Shown here piece after piece: positions 2,325 through 26,717 of a DNA stretch of 43,506 bases. Below the pieces are notes generated by a model that saw only the letters and a list, made by a program, of their open reading frames with translations, had not been told where the DNA came from and made no database searches. How positions within the stretch are numbered: position 1 is the stretch's first letter; each line of letters starts with the position of its first letter. Both the position numbers and the translations under genes were made by a program. The stretch comes from a virus, in IMG/VR virus record IMGVR_UViG_3300037119_008277, positions 1-43,506 of that record, one strand, 5' to 3'.

Positions 2325-2626
2325 GTGAGAGTGAAGGGGATATCTCTGTCATGCTCTCTTCTGCGTTGATTTCAAAGATCACACAGGAGTATTTTAACAA
2401 GGTGATGTTTAAGCAGAAGGTGGAGATTGTTGATTTGAGACCTGCGAGTGATGGGTATATGTTTGTGGTAGCTTTCGCAAATGAGATGAAGGTATACCCT
2501 GACGTGAAGATGATTGATCCTATGTCAGAGGTGCCAGGGATTGATTTTGTAGGGAATGGTGTTACAAATAGTATTGCTGTAGTAAGAGATGGGCAGGGAA
2601 AGTTTGCTAAGGTAAAGGGGGAGTAA
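2321..2626 (+). CDS. Hypothetical protein
   Basis: 101 residues, acidic, no cysteines, and no domain I recognise. It is tightly packed between overlapping neighbours in the plus-strand operon. Residues 30-60 read as beta-strands (VEIVDLRPASDGYMFVVAF). Function unknown. Confidence 0.7.
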   Translation: MSESEGDISVMLSSALISKITQEYFNKVMFKQKVEIVDLRPASDGYMFVVAFANEMKVYPDVKMIDPMSEVPGIDFVGNGVTNSIAVVRDGQGKFAKVKGE

Positions 2627-2893
2627 ATGGCACAGCCGAAGAGAGCAGTTAGAAAAGTTGAAGATAACGAAGGTGATTTGAACCTTATGTTGTATCAAGA
2701 GATGTTGAATATGGTAAAGGATATACAGGTTAAGTCATTAGAGATTGAAAGCGGTGAGGGTTTAGCGGAGGTGTTGTATCGTTTAGGGATGCTTCAGGGG
2801 AGTATTGAGAGGGTTGTTGAGAAGATTAAGGAAGAGAGAGATATAGCAAAGGCAACAGAGGTGTTGTTAAGTAAGGAGGATGCAAGTGGCTGA
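2627..2893 (+). CDS. Small helical hypothetical protein
   Basis: 88 residues starting right behind GGGGGAG, directly after the previous stop. It is highly charged and predicted helical (residues 15-80), consistent with a coiled-coil oligomer or chaperone-like partner of the next gene. It overlaps the following gene. No family recognised. Confidence 0.7.
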   Translation: MAQPKRAVRKVEDNEGDLNLMLYQEMLNMVKDIQVKSLEIESGEGLAEVLYRLGMLQGSIERVVEKIKEERDIAKATEVLLSKEDASG

Positions 2894-3242
2894 AATTGGA
2901 TTTGAGCCGATTGCAGGTCAGGTTAATGGAAAGATGTTAAGAGCAACAGGTTTGGCTACAGGAGATACAACTGCTGTTCTTACCATTAATGAAGGAGATA
3001 GCGATATTGCTATTCATATATACGGGACTATTGGAGGGGCAACGATTGCTATAGCTGGAGGGATCAGTGCGGCTGTAGCAAGCTTTGCTACAGTTGATGA
3101 CGCGTTTGGGGTAGCAATGAGTTACACAACACTGCCAGTTATTAAGCCTCTTGGACCTGCAGCAAGGCAGATTAGGGGTACTGTAACAGGTGGCGCAGCA
3201 AGTGAGATTGTGTTTGATGTGTTTATTCCACATAAGAGGTGA
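2886..3242 (+). CDS. Hypothetical small beta-rich protein
   Basis: Chosen start is GTG 2886, six bases after AAGGAGG. The ATG at 2880 sits too close to that site. The 118-residue product is rich in Gly, Ala, Thr and Ile with alternating strand pattern, as in small virion decoration or fibre-associated proteins. Its place before two adhesin-like genes fits a surface role (inference). Confidence 0.65.
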   Translation: MAEIGFEPIAGQVNGKMLRATGLATGDTTAVLTINEGDSDIAIHIYGTIGGATIAIAGGISAAVASFATVDDAFGVAMSYTTLPVIKPLGPAARQIRGTVTGGAASEIVFDVFIPHKR

Positions 3243-3244
3243 GT

Positions 3245-3529
3245 ATGGCGATTAATTATATTTACTTAGACCCAGCTAAAGCGAGTGAGTTGGAGAATTT
3301 GTTGAGGAGAATGAGTGCTGATCTAGCAAGTCTTGAGGTGATTAGAGATGCGATGACAGAAAAGATCACTGGAGATGGAACAAGCGAGTCACATTTTACT
3401 GCTGTTATTATAGATGCCTACGGGTATCTTACCGCTGCAGATGCTAAGAGGAGTTACGATCAAATCAACTCAACAGTTGGCGGGTCGGTTGAATTAAGGC
3501 AATGTGCTGCTTACCACAGACGGGTATAA
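3245..3529 (+). CDS. Hypothetical protein
   Basis: About 94 residues from ATG 3245 (AGAGG upstream). A GTG two codons earlier (3239) is an alternative. The N-terminal half looks helical. No family recognised. It lies directly before the large beta-rich protein gene. Confidence 0.65.
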   Translation: MAINYIYLDPAKASELENLLRRMSADLASLEVIRDAMTEKITGDGTSESHFTAVIIDAYGYLTAADAKRSYDQINSTVGGSVELRQCAAYHRRV

Positions 3530-3535
3530 AGCAAC

Positions 3536-5137
3536 ATGCAAGAAACACTTATTGTGCTTCCACAGCAAGCAAGATCACCAGGGGTGTATGTAAGTAATGC
3601 TATGTTTGTTGGTGTGGAGAGTACATATGTAATGGCTGTTGCAGATGGGAGAGAGAACTGGGTTGATTTTGGGGTTAATGAGACTGTTGTAGAGTTGGGT
3701 ATTGAGATTAATGTTGATGGGGAATGGAGAGTATTAGCTGCGGTTACAACGGATGGAAAGCCGTCTGTTGATAGGAATGGGAATGTTCAGACCGCAACAA
3801 CGGTTAGGTGTAGATTACCAAGGTCAAGAGTACCTATCCCCCAAGTAAGGGCAGTGTTGCAGTGTAATAGTCCATGTGAAGGGGCTGTCAGTTTTGTTTT
3901 TGATGATACCCCGCTTCCTCTACAAGTAAGACAAGAACACCACTCTGTTACATATGATAGTGATAATGAGGCTGTAGCAACTGCGGCTTCAAGTGTTACT
4001 GTTGGGGCGTTTACCATAGCGGGTAATGCAGATAGATGTTTACTTGTAGGGCTTACCACAGATGATGCTAGTAATGCTGCAGATACAGTTGTAAGTTCGA
4101 TTACACATAATAGTTCTACTGCAGGATGGGCAAGTGTTGTTATTCAAGCTCACCCTGATGCTGCACCAACAAAAGGTCAGATATGGCGAAAGATTGCACC
4201 AAGTGCGGTATCCTCAACTGTTGCTGTTGCGATGGCAGGAGCATGTTCAGCTTTAGGTGCTCATGCACTTTCTGTGTATGGTGTGCATCAAACAACACCA
4301 ATAGGTACAGCGGTCAGTACAACAGGTCATGGAGCAAGCCTTACTTCAACTTCAGTTGATGTTACCGCTGTTACTGGGGATTTAGTTTATGATGTTGTAT
4401 ATTTATTCGGGGACGCTGTTGCAGGTATTGTAACAGGGACAGCGGGAGCGTCTCAAACACAACGAGCGAATAATCTTGTTCTTAACTACCCGCCTTACGG
4501 GAATCAGCTTATTCTAGCAAGTACAGAGCCCGGAGTAACAACGACAACAATGTCATGGGCAATAAGTAACGGTGGAGATACATGGATTATTCATGCCGCT
4601 TGTCCTATTAAAACAGCAGCGGTGTTGTACACCACAACTGTAGCGGGTGTAGTTACAGAGGTGGGTACGTTGGTGAAGCAGGTTAATAAGATTTTACTAG
4701 GGGTGATTACACCGAGTGGGTTGTTAGGAAAGAGGGTTGATAAAGGGGTGAGTGGGAGTATAGCTTTAAGTGGGATTTTGACCAGTGCTGGGTTGTATAG
4801 CGTTTTGTTGAGTGGGGCAGTAGTGATTAGTGGGGTTGTAGTTAAGAGAGTTGATAAGGTTGTGAGTGGTGTGTTGACTGTAAGTGGGGTTGTGATTAGG
4901 CAAGGGGGAAAGGTTCTTAACGGTGTATTACCTGTTAATGGAGTTGTAAGTAAGCAGGGTATGAAGGTGGTAAGTGGCGTTTTGAATGGGGTAGGGAGTT
5001 TAACGGTAACAGCAATAAGAGCTGTAATAGTAGGTGGAGTTATAAGTGCAGTGGGGAGTATAGTAAGTTTGTTTGTTGAAGGTGGTGGGGTTGTTGGTGG
5101 AAAACCGTTTATACTTTTCAGAAGGAGAAAGAAATGA
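3536..5137 (+). CDS. Beta-rich adhesin-like protein with C-terminal 18-residue repeats and basic tail
   Basis: 533 residues. Residues ~1-130 are a beta domain. Residues ~135-365 form a Thr/Ser/Val-rich beta-sandwich of the kind found in phage fibre and surface adhesins. From ~370 an 18-residue repeat recurs, for example VNKILLGVITPSGLLGKR, VDKVVSGVLTVSGVVIRQ and GGKVLNGVLPVNGVVSKQ. The chain ends in a Gly/Val-rich stretch and FRRRKK. The gene at 6789 carries the same repeats and a similar end. Likely a receptor-binding or virion-surface protein, although it is not in the tail operon. Not assigned to a family. Confidence 0.7.
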   Translation: MQETLIVLPQQARSPGVYVSNAMFVGVESTYVMAVADGRENWVDFGVNETVVELGIEINVDGEWRVLAAVTTDGKPSVDRNGNVQTATTVRCRLPRSRVPIPQVRAVLQCNSPCEGAVSFVFDDTPLPLQVRQEHHSVTYDSDNEAVATAASSVTVGAFTIAGNADRCLLVGLTTDDASNAADTVVSSITHNSSTAGWASVVIQAHPDAAPTKGQIWRKIAPSAVSSTVAVAMAGACSALGAHALSVYGVHQTTPIGTAVSTTGHGASLTSTSVDVTAVTGDLVYDVVYLFGDAVAGIVTGTAGASQTQRANNLVLNYPPYGNQLILASTEPGVTTTTMSWAISNGGDTWIIHAACPIKTAAVLYTTTVAGVVTEVGTLVKQVNKILLGVITPSGLLGKRVDKGVSGSIALSGILTSAGLYSVLLSGAVVISGVVVKRVDKVVSGVLTVSGVVIRQGGKVLNGVLPVNGVVSKQGMKVVSGVLNGVGSLTVTAIRAVIVGGVISAVGSIVSLFVEGGGVVGGKPFILFRRRKK

Positions 5138-6789
5138 TTGCTGTTATTTTGGTGATGTTAGGGTTTCTCTTTCCTTCATTTATTACCGCACAGGATACCT
5201 ATACACCTAGAGCATGTACCCATTACGCCTCAGCAACGGGTAGTGGATCAACATGCACATACACTTCACCGTGTTTGATTAATTCATTTTGGTCTATTTC
5301 TTCATTGCCAGGTAAGACATTATGTTTGTTTGATGGCACCTACACTGGTGCTAACTCAATGATTGCTCCACCTTCAGGTCTAACTGGAACAGTAAGTAAT
5401 CCAATTACAGTAAGAGCGCTCAATGATGGTGGGGTTCTTATAAACGCCCAAAATGCACGACGAGCAATCAATATCAACTGGCATGGAGGAGGGGCGAATT
5501 CTAATAATTGGTTTGTGGTTGAAGGTGTAAATATCCAAAACGGTCTTGATGGGTTAGCGACTATTTCAGCGGATAATGTAATAGGCCGTCGTGTAGTAGC
5601 CTGGAATGGAACAAGTGGACAAGCGGATTCAAACATTTTTCGTGTTGATGGATTGAACAGTCGTTGGGAGGATTGTGCTGGATGGGGGTTGAACAGTAGG
5701 AAAATCTTTGATGGAGCGCAGGGTGGTAATTTACAGACTTCTGGTTTTCGACGCTGTTGGGGAGAGTGGAATGAGCATCCACTAGGTGGCAGCACTCCAT
5801 CGAATACATATCAAATGGGATATAACTCCTCAAACCAATTCTACGAAAATGTGATTGGGACGTGGGATTCACTTGGCGATAATGCAGAGCCTCAAGGCGG
5901 CCTTAATCTCTTTTGTAACAATGAAGGCACATGCTCTGTTGCTGGGTCTCAACTTCTCGGGTCAATTTTTTATGTGTTCTCCGGCTCAAGTTACCCTCTT
6001 TCACAGTTGATACGAGCAGGGGGAATTACAGATGTATTTTTTAAGGATGTTGTCGGTTTTGTTGCGTCAGGGTATACCTCTGTGCAACCGTTTATCTTAG
6101 AAACGAGCAGTAGTAATACCTGTGACAATTGCCTGAGTATCCACGCAGGAGCGACCAGTACTCGTGCAGCATGGACAACGCCAAACTGGCGAGAGGGCAA
6201 TGGGCTCGCTGCTGCAACAGGAGGTACAAGTGCGTTTACCTTACTTCCTGGTATTTGTAGACGGTATGAAAATGGTACACTAACGACAACGCCGCTTTGG
6301 CCGTGGCCGATGAATAAAAGGATCAAAGATGCACGTAGTTCATTAGGGTATAGGACAACAGATGTAAATGCCGAGATTGCAAGTATATTAGGAACTATAC
6401 CCAGTGCGTGTATAGCAACAAGTGATAGAGCGAATGTTGGAGGGAGAACGGTTAGTGGTGAGATTGTTATGGGGCCGTTAGAGGTGTGGCCTACACGGCA
6501 AGGAGTAAGGGCGAGTATTGAGGCTGCAGGACAGACGAATGGGGGGATTGTACTGGCATTAACGGTTGAGGCAAGTTATGATGGTGGGAGTAATTGGGTT
6601 TTTGTGAGTAGTGTAAAAAGACCGGGTGGGGCTGTATTAGATGATGCTGGAAATCCGCAGCCTAATTTGTACCTTGCAACAAAGTTGAAAGCACAGTCTG
6701 GTGGAACGTTAAGATTGGTGAGAGCGAAGGTTAATATGCCCTCTTCAAGTTATGTAAGTAATGGCGGTTTTATTGAGGCCACAAACTAA
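5134..6789 (+). CDS. Right-handed beta-helix protein with signal peptide (tailspike/pectate-lyase-like)
   Basis: 551 residues, start ATG 5134 behind AAGGAG (6-base spacing), overlapping the previous stop. Residues 1-19 form a classic signal peptide: a hydrophobic core ending FITA before QD. Residues ~30-400 show repeated short turns rich in Asn, Gly and Val, as in parallel beta-helix carbohydrate-active or binding proteins, with eight or more cysteines. A beta domain follows at ~440-551. Beta-helices are common in phage depolymerases, but an N-terminal signal peptide is not usual for a virion protein. It may be exported by the infected cell or anchored outside. No catalytic residues assigned. 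Confidence 0.7.
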   Translation: MIAVILVMLGFLFPSFITAQDTYTPRACTHYASATGSGSTCTYTSPCLINSFWSISSLPGKTLCLFDGTYTGANSMIAPPSGLTGTVSNPITVRALNDGGVLINAQNARRAININWHGGGANSNNWFVVEGVNIQNGLDGLATISADNVIGRRVVAWNGTSGQADSNIFRVDGLNSRWEDCAGWGLNSRKIFDGAQGGNLQTSGFRRCWGEWNEHPLGGSTPSNTYQMGYNSSNQFYENVIGTWDSLGDNAEPQGGLNLFCNNEGTCSVAGSQLLGSIFYVFSGSSYPLSQLIRAGGITDVFFKDVVGFVASGYTSVQPFILETSSSNTCDNCLSIHAGATSTRAAWTTPNWREGNGLAAATGGTSAFTLLPGICRRYENGTLTTTPLWPWPMNKRIKDARSSLGYRTTDVNAEIASILGTIPSACIATSDRANVGGRTVSGEIVMGPLEVWPTRQGVRASIEAAGQTNGGIVLALTVEASYDGGSNWVFVSSVKRPGGAVLDDAGNPQPNLYLATKLKAQSGGTLRLVRAKVNMPSSSYVSNGGFIEATN

Positions 6790-21168: not shown

Positions 21169-21337
21169 AGTGTGGATTGCTTCTTTGTACAGTAATACAA
21201 CAACTGCTTATGGAAAGGGGGTAAAGACATGGCAACAGTTGCCTGAGAGAGCGCAGAAGGCTTGGGAGGTTACTGTGGAGTTTGTTAGGCAGGGTGCCTT
21301 GACAAAGTACCTTAAAGAAACAAGTGAGATACAATGA
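21137..21337 (+). CDS. AYE-type small protein, copy 2
   Basis: 66 residues, ATG 21137 behind AGGGGAG. QQAYEVW, WQQLPERAQKAWE and FVRQG align with the upstream paralog (AYEQW, DLPIDHQNAW, LIRG). First member of a two-gene unit that seems to have been duplicated just downstream. Confidence 0.7.
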   Translation: MSQTVAQQAYEVWIASLYSNTTTAYGKGVKTWQQLPERAQKAWEVTVEFVRQGALTKYLKETSEIQ

Positions 21338-21338
21338 T

Positions 21339-21545
21339 ATGAGTGATTTAGATAAGATAGTATTCAAGCAAGATATGCTAGATGAGCTTCTAACTGAAGT
21401 AAGCGACTTATTAATAGAACTCAGGGCATTGTTAAAGAGGGAGAGTGATGTTGTATGCATATGTGATGGTGTTCCTTTACAGGATGGAAGTTATCTAATT
21501 AATAAGGATTGTAGGTTACATGGGTTTAGTGGGAGTCATAAATGA
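21339..21545 (+). CDS. Small helical-zinc protein, tandem paralog 1
   Basis: 68 residues from ATG 21339. N-terminal helical part (MSDLDKIVFKQDMLDELL), then VVCICDG and a final CRLHG: a CxC plus CxxHG zinc signature. Paired with the paralog at 21585. Weak ribosome site; a GTG at 21324 is an alternative start. Confidence 0.65.
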   Translation: MSDLDKIVFKQDMLDELLTEVSDLLIELRALLKRESDVVCICDGVPLQDGSYLINKDCRLHGFSGSHK

Positions 21546-21592
21546 AAACACCTGGACAGATTGCATATGAAGCGTACTGTAAATATGAGTAA
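21542..21592 (+). pseudogene. 16-codon remnant of an AYE-type gene
   Basis: ATG overlaps the previous stop (ATGA) and reads MKTPGQIAYEAYCKYE then stop. This is the typical start of an AYE-type protein (compare the copies at 20965 and 21137). The stop overlaps the start of the next gene by 8 bases. It looks like a decayed second copy of the unit AYE-gene + zinc gene, possibly now only a coupling leader for the gene at 21585. Confidence 0.6.
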
Positions 21593-21785
21593 TTTAGATA
21601 GGATAGGGCTTATGCAAGATGCACTAACTAATATCCTCACTGACATAAGGGCGTTATTAATAGATATTACCTATATGTTAAAGAGGAGAGATGGGGTGTG
21701 TTTGTGTTTTGAGCCTTTATGTTTGGGTGATATATCGGGGATAGATGAAAAATGCCCTTTACATGGTAATGGGGGTTATAAGTGA
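21585..21785 (+). CDS. Small helical-zinc protein, tandem paralog 2
   Basis: 66 residues from ATG 21585. Same plan as the paralog 21339: MSNLDRIGLMQDAL helix, VCLCF, and CPLHG end. Overlaps the remnant upstream and the GTG of the next gene. Confidence 0.65.
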   Translation: MSNLDRIGLMQDALTNILTDIRALLIDITYMLKRRDGVCLCFEPLCLGDISGIDEKCPLHGNGGYK

Positions 21786-22671: not shown

Positions 22672-23028
22672 ATGTATAATGTAACCTTAATGCCTAATGA
22701 CACGTTAGAAGTAACTGTTAATTTCACTGATGTAAACGCTTCTATTATTGTATCTATCAATCTTGTTGAGAAGACGGTAAAGTGGGGTGGTGCAGCTATT
22801 GTGGAGGGTTTGTTTGGTGAATTACTTATACGGTTAGGGATGAAACAGAGAAGATATTACTCTATAGGTGAGAAGACTATCCCTGCTGGTATTAGAGGTT
22901 TAATGATTACTCAGGATTTTTACGATGATATGAAGCGTGTGTTAGGGGGTTTTATCAGTGTAAGTGAAAGGACGGGTACAGTGAAATTTATAAAGGATAC
23001 TGTAGATAATGATATCTTTACCGAATAG
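22672..23028 (+). CDS. Hypothetical protein
   Basis: 118 residues with beta strands in the first half (VTLMPNDTLEVTVNF). Ends DIFTE-stop, with the next gene's ATG inside that end. The same end sequence recurs one gene later (see the repeat at 23010). Confidence 0.7.
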   Translation: MYNVTLMPNDTLEVTVNFTDVNASIIVSINLVEKTVKWGGAAIVEGLFGELLIRLGMKQRRYYSIGEKTIPAGIRGLMITQDFYDDMKRVLGGFISVSERTGTVKFIKDTVDNDIFTE

Positions 23029-23191
23029 CAGTGATTTACAATTAACCTATGACGAAGTCGATACTCTCTATAGTTCCCTTGCTTGTGTTTTTATTGTGTT
23101 CGATGAGCATAGAGAAAAGCTAAGGTTGTTAATGAAAAAGATGGAAGATTACTTGAAGGAGAATAGTCACAGTGATATCTCTACCGAGTAG
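23009..23191 (+). CDS. Small hypothetical protein between near-identical gene junctions
   Basis: 60 residues. Begins MISLPNSSD and ends DISTE, while the next gene begins MISLPSSCE and the previous one ends DIFTE. The gene therefore lies between two copies of the same 25-bp junction. Helical C-terminal half, function unknown. Confidence 0.65.
   Translation: MISLPNSSDLQLTYDEVDTLYSSLACVFIVFDEHREKLRLLMKKMEDYLKENSHSDISTE
23010..23034 (+). repeat. 25-bp gene-junction repeat, copy 1
   Basis: 22 of 25 bases match 23173-23197. It spans the stop of the 118-residue gene and the start of the 60-residue gene. Confidence 0.65.
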
Positions 23192-24647
23192 CTGTGAAGG
23201 GTGCCCTTTCTACCAATACAAAGATCACCCTGAGAATGGCTTTGTGCCTGATACAGTTGTACCTAACAGCACAGTCTACTTCCTCGCTCAGAACCCTGGA
23301 AGAGATGAGGTTGAAGGGAGGAGGTTAATCAAAAGGCAATATGGAGGGAGTGTAGTTGAATACGAGAATGTTATACCTCAACCTCTCATTGGCGCTACTG
23401 GTGTGCAGTTTAATACTCGCTTTTTACCCTTGGCTGGATTGAAGAGAGGTGAGGTATCTCTTGGTAACTCCATACGGTGTAGGCCGGGGCAAGCTATGAT
23501 AGATGGTGGAGTGAAGGGGATTATAAAAGCTGATGATCTCCCTACTATCACAGCAACTATGAGGTTGGATAACGATAAAACCAAGTCAGATATAGTGAAA
23601 GCCTTGAAGCACTGTCGCTCTACTCATATGAAGATACCGCAGAGCACAAAAGTAATAGTGACCATGGGTAGACATGCTATGTTCGCTATGACTGGGCTAG
23701 CGAAAGATCAAGATGAGTATAAGAAGAAACAGGGGGTTATGGAAAGCTGGAGGGGGTATGGGGTTATATGTGCTGATAGGGATAGCATTTGTACTGTTAA
23801 TACTGATAACTACTATGATGTGAATATCTTACGCAGTACGGGGCTTATTGTGTTTTTCACCATGCACATAGCTGCTCTTAACTATGGGGATAATAAGAAG
23901 TATGTCCACGCAACATTGCAGGATTTCTATAAGTTAGGGAGGTTGATTAAAGGAGAGTGGCCTTTACCTGTACCTCAATGGAGTAATATACCCCCTATTG
24001 AATGGCCTGTATACAGCGCCTTTGATACTGAATACAACCCAGATACAGCAGAGCTATATAGATGGAGTATGTGTGATAATAACAGCAACCTTTACTGCGT
24101 GGAGTTTGCCGACACTGAGCGAGGTTCATTTATCCCTATTCAACACAATAGCACAATCCTCTTCCAAAATGCTCTTGCTGATATTGGTTATCTTTCTAGG
24201 GTTGTTGATATTAGCCGTGTTAACGTAGAGGATATGATGCTTGCCCACTCAGTGCTGTGGAGTGGTGAGCCGCATTCATTGAATTATATCAACAGTATCT
24301 ATGGGGGGTTGAATAGGTATAAACACCTCAGTGAAGGCGAACCTCAAGCCTACTCAGCCTACGATGCCTTTGAACCTATGTACATGTGGCGTTCGTACTT
24401 TATCCCTGAGTTTAAGAGGGATAAGGAGAGTTGGTTTGTGTATAAGAAATACAGACTACCTCTTATTGAGATAATAGACAAAGCGCAGAAGAGTGGAGCG
24501 AGGATTGATACAGCTCGTTTAACAGATGTTAAGTATATCCTCCAAGAAAGACTTGAGGGGTATAGGAAAAGAGCTATTGAGATTACTGGTGATCCATCCT
24601 TTAACCTTGGCGGGAGTAAGAAGTTAAGAGAGGAGATATATGGATGA
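23172..24647 (+). CDS. Uracil-glycosylase-like + 3'-5' exonuclease + N-terminal part of family A DNA polymerase
   Basis: 491 residues, GTG start with AAGGAG ten bases upstream. Residues ~1-260: family 4 uracil-DNA glycosylase-like domain, with CEGC (8,11), NPGRDE (41-46), C103, C148 (possible 4Fe-4S ligands) and MHIAAL (H232) in place of the usual HP motif. Residues ~280-400: DnaQ-type exonuclease, with FDTE (D285, E287), D354 and Y394-x3-D398. Residues ~425-491: start of the polymerase thumb, ending FNLGGSKKLREEI, after which family A enzymes normally continue. Fused glycosylase-like domains occur in SPO1-type phage polymerases. The catalytic palm is encoded separately at 25439. Confidence 0.88.
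   Translation: MISLPSSCEGCPFYQYKDHPENGFVPDTVVPNSTVYFLAQNPGRDEVEGRRLIKRQYGGSVVEYENVIPQPLIGATGVQFNTRFLPLAGLKRGEVSLGNSIRCRPGQAMIDGGVKGIIKADDLPTITATMRLDNDKTKSDIVKALKHCRSTHMKIPQSTKVIVTMGRHAMFAMTGLAKDQDEYKKKQGVMESWRGYGVICADRDSICTVNTDNYYDVNILRSTGLIVFFTMHIAALNYGDNKKYVHATLQDFYKLGRLIKGEWPLPVPQWSNIPPIEWPVYSAFDTEYNPDTAELYRWSMCDNNSNLYCVEFADTERGSFIPIQHNSTILFQNALADIGYLSRVVDISRVNVEDMMLAHSVLWSGEPHSLNYINSIYGGLNRYKHLSEGEPQAYSAYDAFEPMYMWRSYFIPEFKRDKESWFVYKKYRLPLIEIIDKAQKSGARIDTARLTDVKYILQERLEGYRKRAIEITGDPSFNLGGSKKLREEIYG
23173..23197 (+). repeat. 25-bp gene-junction repeat, copy 2
   Basis: Second copy, 163 bases further on, spanning the stop of the 60-residue gene and the start of the polymerase N-part. Suggests the small gene was inserted or duplicated through recombination at the junction. 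Confidence 0.65.
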
Positions 24648-24825
24648 AATAACCGTTGTCTACTTTGACTATGAAACACAGAAAACAGTTGTCGATCAAA
24701 AGGTACCTGATGGTATATTGATAAAAGGAATCATCTCTGTTAATGAAGGGGATAGATGTTATCGGTACGAACTGTGTTATTATAATGATAGTCAAAAGGT
24801 TGCTTTTGCACTGAGGGTTGATTGA
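24640..24825 (+). CDS. Small hypothetical protein in the polymerase gap
   Basis: 61 residues, ATG overlapping the polymerase N-part stop, GGAG four bases upstream. Beta-rich start, a single C-x5-C pair (CYRYELC). First of four tiny genes between the two polymerase genes. Confidence 0.65.
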   Translation: MDEITVVYFDYETQKTVVDQKVPDGILIKGIISVNEGDRCYRYELCYYNDSQKVAFALRVD

Positions 24826-25053
24826 TTGCGAGTGAGTATAAAAGATAGAGTTAAAGCTGTGATAAGGGGTGTATACGAGAAGTTTGAACAAGTCAAGCTA
24901 AACCCCAAACACTTCTCAATAAACCTCTGTCTTGCTTGTGAGGGGTTACTATCCCAAGAGATATATGGCTACACCAACTTTGTTGTATCGTTTGAAGGGA
25001 TGTTGATAACTGCTGTTATTAAGAGAGAGGAGTGTATACTGTGTCAGAGGTAA
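24826..25053 (+). CDS. CxxC microprotein in the polymerase gap, paralog 1
   Basis: 75 residues. CLAC (~35-38) and a C-terminal CILC make a four-Cys site about 32 residues apart. The layout FSINLCLACEGLL...ECILCQR matches the gene at 25212 (LSVKLCESCIAEVL...DCLLCLKEQ), so the two are paralogs. TTG start directly after the previous stop; GTG 24832 is an alternative. Confidence 0.65.
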   Translation: MRVSIKDRVKAVIRGVYEKFEQVKLNPKHFSINLCLACEGLLSQEIYGYTNFVVSFEGMLITAVIKREECILCQR

Positions 25054-25211
25054 AGTCGATATATTGGAAAGTAAGTGTTGATATACCAGCCTTGAGTGAT
25101 ACTTATGTAGAATCTGTAAGAAATGAGGTGTATGAGAGAATAGACTCAGTGATGTATGATGTATCTGCTGATTATGGGGTGAGTTGGAGTATTAGATGGG
25201 TGGAGGAGTAG
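25041..25211 (+). CDS. Short hypothetical protein in the polymerase gap
   Basis: 56 codons from GTG 25041 with GAGGAG a few bases upstream, overlapping the end of the previous gene and ending immediately before the next ATG. Acidic alpha-beta microprotein (SEVKSIYWKVSVDIPALSD start). Tight spacing on both sides supports translation. Confidence 0.55.
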   Translation: MSEVKSIYWKVSVDIPALSDTYVESVRNEVYERIDSVMYDVSADYGVSWSIRWVEE

Positions 25212-25457
25212 ATGCCACACAAAGCGATAGTAAAAAACAGCCCAATGAAAAGGTTTATAGAGTTAGCGGCAGATATTGAACGGTATAATATACCCTACAG
25301 AAAGGCATTATCCGTTAAACTGTGTGAAAGCTGTATAGCTGAGGTGTTAATAAGTATGGACTACCCAGAAGATAACATATCGTTAAAGATGTGTATGGGT
25401 TTTACAATACATCAATCGACATATGAGGATTGTTTACTGTGCCTCAAAGAACAGTAG
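25212..25457 (+). CDS. CxxC microprotein in the polymerase gap, paralog 2
   Basis: 81 residues, ATG directly after the previous stop with GGAGG in front. CESC (~38-41) and CLLC near the end, same plan as the 24826 gene. Its last 19 bases overlap the start of the catalytic polymerase gene, so the two are translationally linked. Confidence 0.7.
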   Translation: MPHKAIVKNSPMKRFIELAADIERYNIPYRKALSVKLCESCIAEVLISMDYPEDNISLKMCMGFTIHQSTYEDCLLCLKEQ

Positions 25458-26521
25458 TTAAAAACAACCTCCAAAGAGACACCCTACGTAAGATAGCAAG
25501 TAACCCAAAGTTCACTGATAATCAAAGAGAGCTTGCTGCGCTTAAGGTAGCATATAGTGAAGATAGCGAGCTATTAACGGGTACAGTAAATAAACTGGTA
25601 GGTACTACTCGTCTTTATCTCCATCACCTACCTACACAGACCAGTGGAAGGTGGTCAACATGGATAACCAATTGGCCGAGAGAGTGTATTAACCAAGAGT
25701 GCTCGAGGGAAGAGCATGAATGGATAGAGCAGTGTTGGTCTGTTAGAGATATCCTTTTACCAGATAGCGATGAGATACTAATCACCTGGGACCATGATAA
25801 CATTGAAGGGAAGATACATGACCTTGTCATTGATGACAGAGAAGCTATCCAAGCTCACAGTGAGGGCTTTGACCTTCATACAATTACCTGTTGTAATATT
25901 TTTAATATGGACTATCCACTTAACAAAAAGAATCCTCATGGCTCAGAGGAAGATAGTGAATGGCGTAGTAGGTATAACTGGCAAGGAAAGGATGCAAGAA
26001 TAAGAGTGTTAGCAAAGAATTTCAACCATGGGGCGAAGTATACTGAGTCATATAAGTTTGTACACAACATCAAGGGGATTGAAAGGTATGGGGTAAGCTA
26101 CAAGCAACTTGAGCAGTTGGCAAAGAATTACATAAGGAGTAAGGGAGATGCTTGGCAAAGGAAGCTGGAGATAATGAGAGATATACGGGAGAGAAGAGTA
26201 GCTCGTTCCCTCTATGGCTTTCGTAGAATCTTCTTTGACAGCTCTGCTGAGTCTGGGAGACGAGGCTTCTCTCACATGATAAGCGCAACGGTGAGTGATT
26301 ATAACAATGAGACGTTGAGGTTACTTGAGGCTCATTTCAATGATAACATACGCCTTTTACATAACGCCCATGACGGGGATAAAATTGCAATTAAAAGAGG
26401 AGTGTTTAACGGGCAGTGCTCTGTAGCTATGCATCAAGTTTTGAAGGGGATAATTGAACGCCCTATCACCTATCAAGGACGCTCCCTCACCATGACAGCG
26501 GGGATTAAGGTATATGCCTAA
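25439..26521 (+). CDS. Catalytic (palm/fingers) part of family A DNA polymerase
   Basis: 360 residues from GTG 25439 (GAGG 11 bases upstream; TTG 25430 also possible). TSGRWS (68-73) matches the T-GR-S nucleic-acid motif. Motif A D118-HDNIE123. Motif B R189-x3-K193-x7-Y201. LYGFRR (258-263) as in LFGRRR. Motif C H311-D312. All catalytic positions needed for nucleotidyl transfer are present, so the subunit is probably active with the 491-residue partner. Odd points: the residue equivalent to E. coli Phe762 is His197, Gly follows Tyr201 is replaced by Thr, and motif C reads HDG instead of HDE. Confidence 0.9.
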   Translation: MPQRTVVKNNLQRDTLRKIASNPKFTDNQRELAALKVAYSEDSELLTGTVNKLVGTTRLYLHHLPTQTSGRWSTWITNWPRECINQECSREEHEWIEQCWSVRDILLPDSDEILITWDHDNIEGKIHDLVIDDREAIQAHSEGFDLHTITCCNIFNMDYPLNKKNPHGSEEDSEWRSRYNWQGKDARIRVLAKNFNHGAKYTESYKFVHNIKGIERYGVSYKQLEQLAKNYIRSKGDAWQRKLEIMRDIRERRVARSLYGFRRIFFDSSAESGRRGFSHMISATVSDYNNETLRLLEAHFNDNIRLLHNAHDGDKIAIKRGVFNGQCSVAMHQVLKGIIERPITYQGRSLTMTAGIKVYA

Positions 26522-26717
26522 TATAGAGATAATTATATGTTGGGATGGCTCTCTATCTACTCTAACCGAAACAATTCAAGATGAGTTATCCCGTGTTACA
26601 GAGGGTAAATACAGGCACGGTAAGGTTGCAAAAACAAGCGCACATACTTATATTTGCGGAGATGGTAAATTGCCTATCAGGTATCACAGAAAATTTATAA
26701 TAGCTGTTGACGATTAA
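26514..26717 (+). CDS. Small hypothetical protein, last gene of the replication operon
   Basis: 67 residues, ATG inside the end of the polymerase gene. Alternating strands at both ends (IEIIICWDG, RKFIIAVDD). Function unknown. Only 49 bases separate it from the convergent late operon and no clear terminator is visible there. Confidence 0.6.
   Translation: MPNIEIIICWDGSLSTLTETIQDELSRVTEGKYRHGKVAKTSAHTYICGDGKLPIRYHRKFIIAVDD

Follow-up and report, generated by a model that had tools for sequence, protein, structure and literature searches.

In the virus record IMGVR_UViG_3300037119_008277 from IMG/VR, analysed as one stretch of 43,506 nucleotides (the window), a family A DNA polymerase is divided between two genes, an N-terminal and a C-terminal half, separated by exactly 791 bp (Table 1). 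Family A polymerases are textbook single-chain enzymes, and the usual continuous chain is absent from this locus. In the N half, a family-4-like uracil-DNA glycosylase (UDG) domain is followed by a 3'-5' exonuclease and then by the first half of the thumb. Four small open reading frames (ORFs) take up the gap almost wholly. An earlier, sequence-only reading of the locus gave the coordinates and end residues, the separate GTG start of the C half and the length of the gap, all of which proved right. Its four short gap genes with good starts were also found as ORFs, with the reservation that two of the four starts are not ATG.

Table 1. Genes at the split polymerase locus of the window and, in the last row, the differently interrupted polymerase of contig L026.
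Feature	Position	Strand	Description
N-terminal polymerase gene	23172..24647	+	GTG start, 491 amino acids; protein ends FNLGGSKKLREEIYG at the stop codon
Gap ORF 1	24640..24825	+	61 amino acids; start codon lies inside the end of the N gene (8-nt overlap); no clear homologue
Gap ORF 2	24826..25053	+	75 amino acids, TTG start, CxxC; no homologue in related phages
Gap ORF 3	25041..25211	+	56 amino acids, GTG start
Gap ORF 4	25212..25457	+	81 amino acids, CxxC; runs into the beginning of the C gene; no homologue in related phages
C-terminal polymerase gene	25439..26521	+	GTG start, 360 amino acids; rest of thumb, palm, fingers
Small gene 3' of the C half	26514..26717	+	homologue in L004 sits between the halves (52% identity)
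L026 interrupted polymerase and HNH gene	2562-4304, 4201-4665, 4655-5680		independent split at another site

The domains of both halves were identified by profile searches, alignment and structure comparison. The N half matches UDG PF03167, the phrog_17 DNA polymerase profile and, below its cut-off, the exonuclease PF01612. The C half scores below the Pfam cut-off for DNA_pol_A (PF00476) in the window, and above it in contigs L010, L011, L026, and L049. When a template-free model of the window C half, of low confidence (predicted local distance difference test, pLDDT, 54.5), was compared by Foldseek, the best solved structures were the Bst, Taq, and Klenow polymerases (probability 1.00, E 2e-8). 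A comparison of the halves with phage polymerases, proposed in the sequence-only reading, showed that they are collinear with fused enzymes. MW202572 encodes the nearest fused relative found, and to this enzyme the halves align over the full length, with all domains present. In this alignment the break falls in a loop at the tip of the thumb, and each half has its own part of the thumb. A profile made from three N halves, compared with Klenow chains, covers the last part of the exonuclease domain and the first part of the thumb and stops at FNLSSTKQLQTILF, chain position ~268; this corresponds roughly to residue 591 in E. coli Pol I if the chain numbering starts at residue 324. On the phrog_17 profile, the N half of L010 ends at 902 and its C half starts at 929. 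Little sequence is left over at the junction: in the window, at most about 2 residues separate the end of the N half from the last homologous position, and about 10-12 residues of the C half precede its first thumb helix.

The identical break site was found in 13 distinct contigs, namely the window and 12 other IMG/VR phage contigs (L004, L005, L010, L011, L030, L031, L033, L034, L035, L048, L049, and L050); L032, which has the same sequence as L033 around the polymerase, was not counted separately. The C halves of L004 and L005 are 73% and 72% identical to that of the window, and both contigs have the same break with other small genes in the gap. For L010 the identity is 57% in the N half and 61% in the C half, with the same break and one gene of 73 amino acids between the halves. 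The remaining nine, more distant contigs were found with alignments of the halves, and in all of them the N and C parts are separate genes with an identical break site. The junctions of the 13 loci measure -56 (an overlap, in L049), -31, -1, 4, 17, 135, 143, 151, 217, 492, 541, 565, and, in the window, 791 bp, and the C half lies in a different frame from the N half in 11 of them. Recurrence of the split in 12 further distinct contigs rules out chance and also mis-assembly, which had been named as a possible refutation. A run of seven G was noted in L011 (7410-7435) just before the stop of the N half, where the halves are 4 bp apart and in different frames. The L011 split was therefore suspected at first to be a homopolymer artefact, but halves that abut or overlap in different frames occur at four other loci too, which makes an artefact unlikely. 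A search of 84,980 bacterial and archaeal genomes found no relatives, and polymerase matches from the human gut (L037, L038, and L039) are ordinary fused bacterial-type Pol I.

The residues required for catalysis are conserved in both halves. In the window C half, these are D118 and E123 of motif A, R189, K193, and Y201 of motif B, and H311 and D312 of motif C; the tested polymerase residues are kept in all 13 split enzymes, save for one Y-to-F change of motif B in L049. The exonuclease motifs DxE, NxxxD, and YxxxD of the proofreading DEDD type (D285, E287, N333, D337, Y394, and D398) are invariant. Cysteines C8, C11, C103, and C148 of the UDG domain are present in 13 of 13, a pattern suggesting an iron-sulphur family-4 UDG, and the NPGxxE-type motif is present as well, with P42, G43, E46, and H232 conserved. 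It was also observed that residues 83-99 of the C half form a zinc knuckle-like insert in the palm, C-x4-C-x4-H-x5-C, found in nine of the 13 split polymerases and in none of the fused relatives. In the window record and in four related records that were checked, no family A polymerase other than this one was detected.

The phylogenetic analysis links the histories of the two halves. In the combined tree, the 13 split enzymes lie on one side of a branch and the fused enzymes of MW202572 and vir526 on the other, with support of 98/97; the N tree alone agrees (97/98), with MW202572 as the nearest outgroup. The distances among N halves correlate with those among C halves (r=0.947, Mantel p 0.0002). 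In the window clade, the ratio of nonsynonymous to synonymous substitution rates (dN/dS) could be estimated in four comparisons and lies there at about 0.06-0.14 in N and C halves alike, which indicates purifying selection. The fused outgroups are two only, MW202572 and vir526, and stand on long branches, so that the root of the split is not firm. Given these few outgroups, the trees support a single ancient split, which probably preceded the divergence of a broad phage group and was followed by joint vertical inheritance of both genes.

It is therefore likely that the products of the two genes are separate chains of a single phage replicative family A DNA polymerase, broken at the thumb tip, with passenger genes between the halves. 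The two-subunit enzyme implied in the sequence-only reading is well supported by the comparison, that is, by 13 contigs with the same break, retained catalytic residues, matching trees of the halves, and the finding of no route by which they could be joined. In the proposed arrangement, the N subunit would bring the UDG, the proofreading exonuclease and the thumb as far as its tip, and the C subunit would complete the thumb and add the palm and fingers. The tip, where the break falls, is an exposed loop. Each chain would supply one of two antiparallel thumb helices, and the thumb would probably be restored by their non-covalent packing against each other. This region of the thumb is also where T7 DNA polymerase has its thioredoxin-binding insertion. 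Several points weigh against this interpretation. That the two chains assemble and form an active enzyme is something we infer only from the retention of both thumb parts when neither half has a whole thumb alone. All records of the split are metagenomic. The C tree alone does not settle the placement of MW202572, the coupled descent of the halves would be equally expected of neighbouring genes acting separately, and dS is undefined in the other eight comparisons and near saturation or undefined in most pairs. To these are added the low confidence of the C half model and the poor model of the N half (pLDDT 41), the Foldseek result of which was not used. It can be speculated further that this is an obligate two-subunit family A replicase, kept throughout a broad phage group and with a thumb built of two chains, in which the subunit with UDG and proofreading activities could bind and leave as a removable checkpoint for damage and errors; such an extension is rather improbable.

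The alternative that has to be considered most closely is that the genes encode two independent enzymes, the N half a UDG with 3'-5' exonuclease and the C half a polymerase without proofreading, which form no stable complex. Each half does contain complete catalytic centres of its own domains, and the isolated Klenow polymerase domain (about residues 515-928) is known to be active without the exonuclease domain. However, that active C-terminal fragment has a whole thumb, which the C half does not. The break cuts the thumb and not the border between exonuclease and polymerase, each half keeps its own thumb part, and independent action leaves the keeping of both parts unexplained; it is thus considered unlikely. 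Another proposal would be that the gene has decayed and that the phage depends on another polymerase. The low PF00476 score of the window C half could be read in this way, but the purifying selection, the invariant catalytic residues and the lack of a second family A polymerase in the record make decay the most far-fetched of the explanations.

The remaining possibilities restore a single chain. Group I introns are frequent in phage family A polymerase genes (SPO1-type, Bastille, and phiL7; cited in PMC10580990), and removal of the gap at the RNA level, or joining of the halves by trans-splicing as intein parts, would lead to one continuous product. However, Rfam gives no match in the window gap at E<=1, and at the gathering threshold, in the window and the other split loci, no intron was found, the sole match being a tRNA in L005. 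The gaps are filled with ORFs, that of L010 (217 bp) being almost fully coding, and other loci have near-zero gaps or overlaps. Intein halves do not fit because few spare residues exist at the junction, none at the end of the N half in the window clade and about 10-12 at the start of the C half. Splicing of either kind is accordingly very improbable, in agreement with the sequence-only reading, which had seen no intron, intein or frameshift. Joining during translation, by programmed frameshifting or stop readthrough, might be envisaged for the five loci in which the halves abut or overlap (L011, L031, L035, L049, and L050), as the genes there are close and their frames differ, and in L011 the run of seven G could be an indel. 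It is impossible in the eight loci with gaps of 135-791 bp, and distance or reading frame argues against it. In addition, the C halves have their own start codons, some with a Shine-Dalgarno-like sequence upstream, and L011 groups with loci in which the genes are separated; a joined translation product is hardly to be expected. The two-subunit polymerase is, in consequence, the explanation that we favour.

The genes between the halves number from zero to four per locus and are not shared among loci; of 15 gap proteins, not one is clearly homologous to a protein from another gap. The sole clear cross-match is between a 70-amino-acid gap gene of L004 and the window gene located just 3' of the C half, which shows a turnover of passenger genes around the split. 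The five loci listed above lack any intervening gene, so that a bridging factor is not a general requirement. The assembly or bridging role suggested in the sequence-only reading for the two CxxC proteins of the window was rejected on this ground and also because they have no homologue at the other split polymerase loci. Their proposed paralogy is weakly supported, with a local score of 39 against a shuffled mean of 23.9 (p ~0.007) that arises mostly from shared cysteines. The small gap genes are probably variable, replaceable passengers of the operon. The window gap has 18, 26, and 18 stop codons in its three frames. The genes are closely packed on the + strand, where no terminator-like site was found in the scanned region, and the N half is likely to be coupled in translation to the gene that follows it, whose start overlaps the N-half stop in the window, L004, L005, L010, L033, and L034.

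Several repeats and duplications were observed around these genes. A 42-nt direct repeat (74%; 22993-23034 and 23156-23197 of the window) repeats the start of the N half and flanks a gene of 60 amino acids (23009-23191), and a similar 18-amino-acid duplicate of the N-half start lies in L005 (3448-3501). Such short repeated gene ends may be sites between which small genes are added. In L033, the N half has a small gene on either side (3267-3482 and 4792-4998), the two being weakly similar to each other (37.5%, E 0.01). Further upstream in the window, two neighbouring small genes (21324-21545 and 21561-21785) are paralogues (local score 108, shuffled mean 25).

Some data on the possible origin of the split come from L010 and L026. 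The gap protein of L010 weakly resembles HNH/Endonuclease VII proteins in their zinc part (E 0.006-0.018). In L026 (IMGVR 3300006880_000287), as in the window, a UDG-exonuclease-polymerase, here a distant one, is interrupted into two ORFs; however, the break lies between thumb and palm, and the gap holds a full Endonuclease VII-type HNH gene (PF02945, E 7.7e-20). L026 thus shows one route by which such splits can arise. Considering both cases, such splits may plausibly go back to the insertion of a homing-type endonuclease; for the thumb-tip split this origin is inferred.

Split phage replicases have been described previously. In the Aeromonas phages 25 and 44RR, the family B polymerase gp43 is, like the window enzyme, encoded by two genes with a segment between them, and gp43A and gp43B of phage 25 co-purify and are active (PMC2988022). 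In contrast to the window, the fold and the site of the split are different, and the segment holds a seg-type homing endonuclease in phage 25 and is untranslated in 44RR (PMC2988022). Within family A, a split polymerase was reported for the OM43 phages MEP401 and MEP402 (Zobellviridae; OP830906 gp13, gp14, and gp15) and for most related metagenomic genomes, with the involvement of an intron left open by the authors (PMC10580990). It is a different split, as the MEP401 break lies in the palm just before motif A, about 100 residues after that of the window enzyme, and MEP401 has no UDG domain, which the window N half has. The order UDG, 3'-5' exonuclease, polymerase is also that of MW202572 (UOF78753) and of PaBG gp205 (PMC7412058), but there it forms one continuous chain. 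No earlier report of a thumb-tip split was found in the open-access literature. If the interpretation is true, a lineage with a two-gene enzyme cut in the thumb would mean that this subdomain can be assembled from two chains over long evolution, and the break would offer a natural split site for engineering. It would also strengthen the case that the unexplained split polymerase of the OM43 phages could be a real two-chain enzyme, and the split sequences allow a test of whether the splitting of a replicase is only tolerated or is useful.
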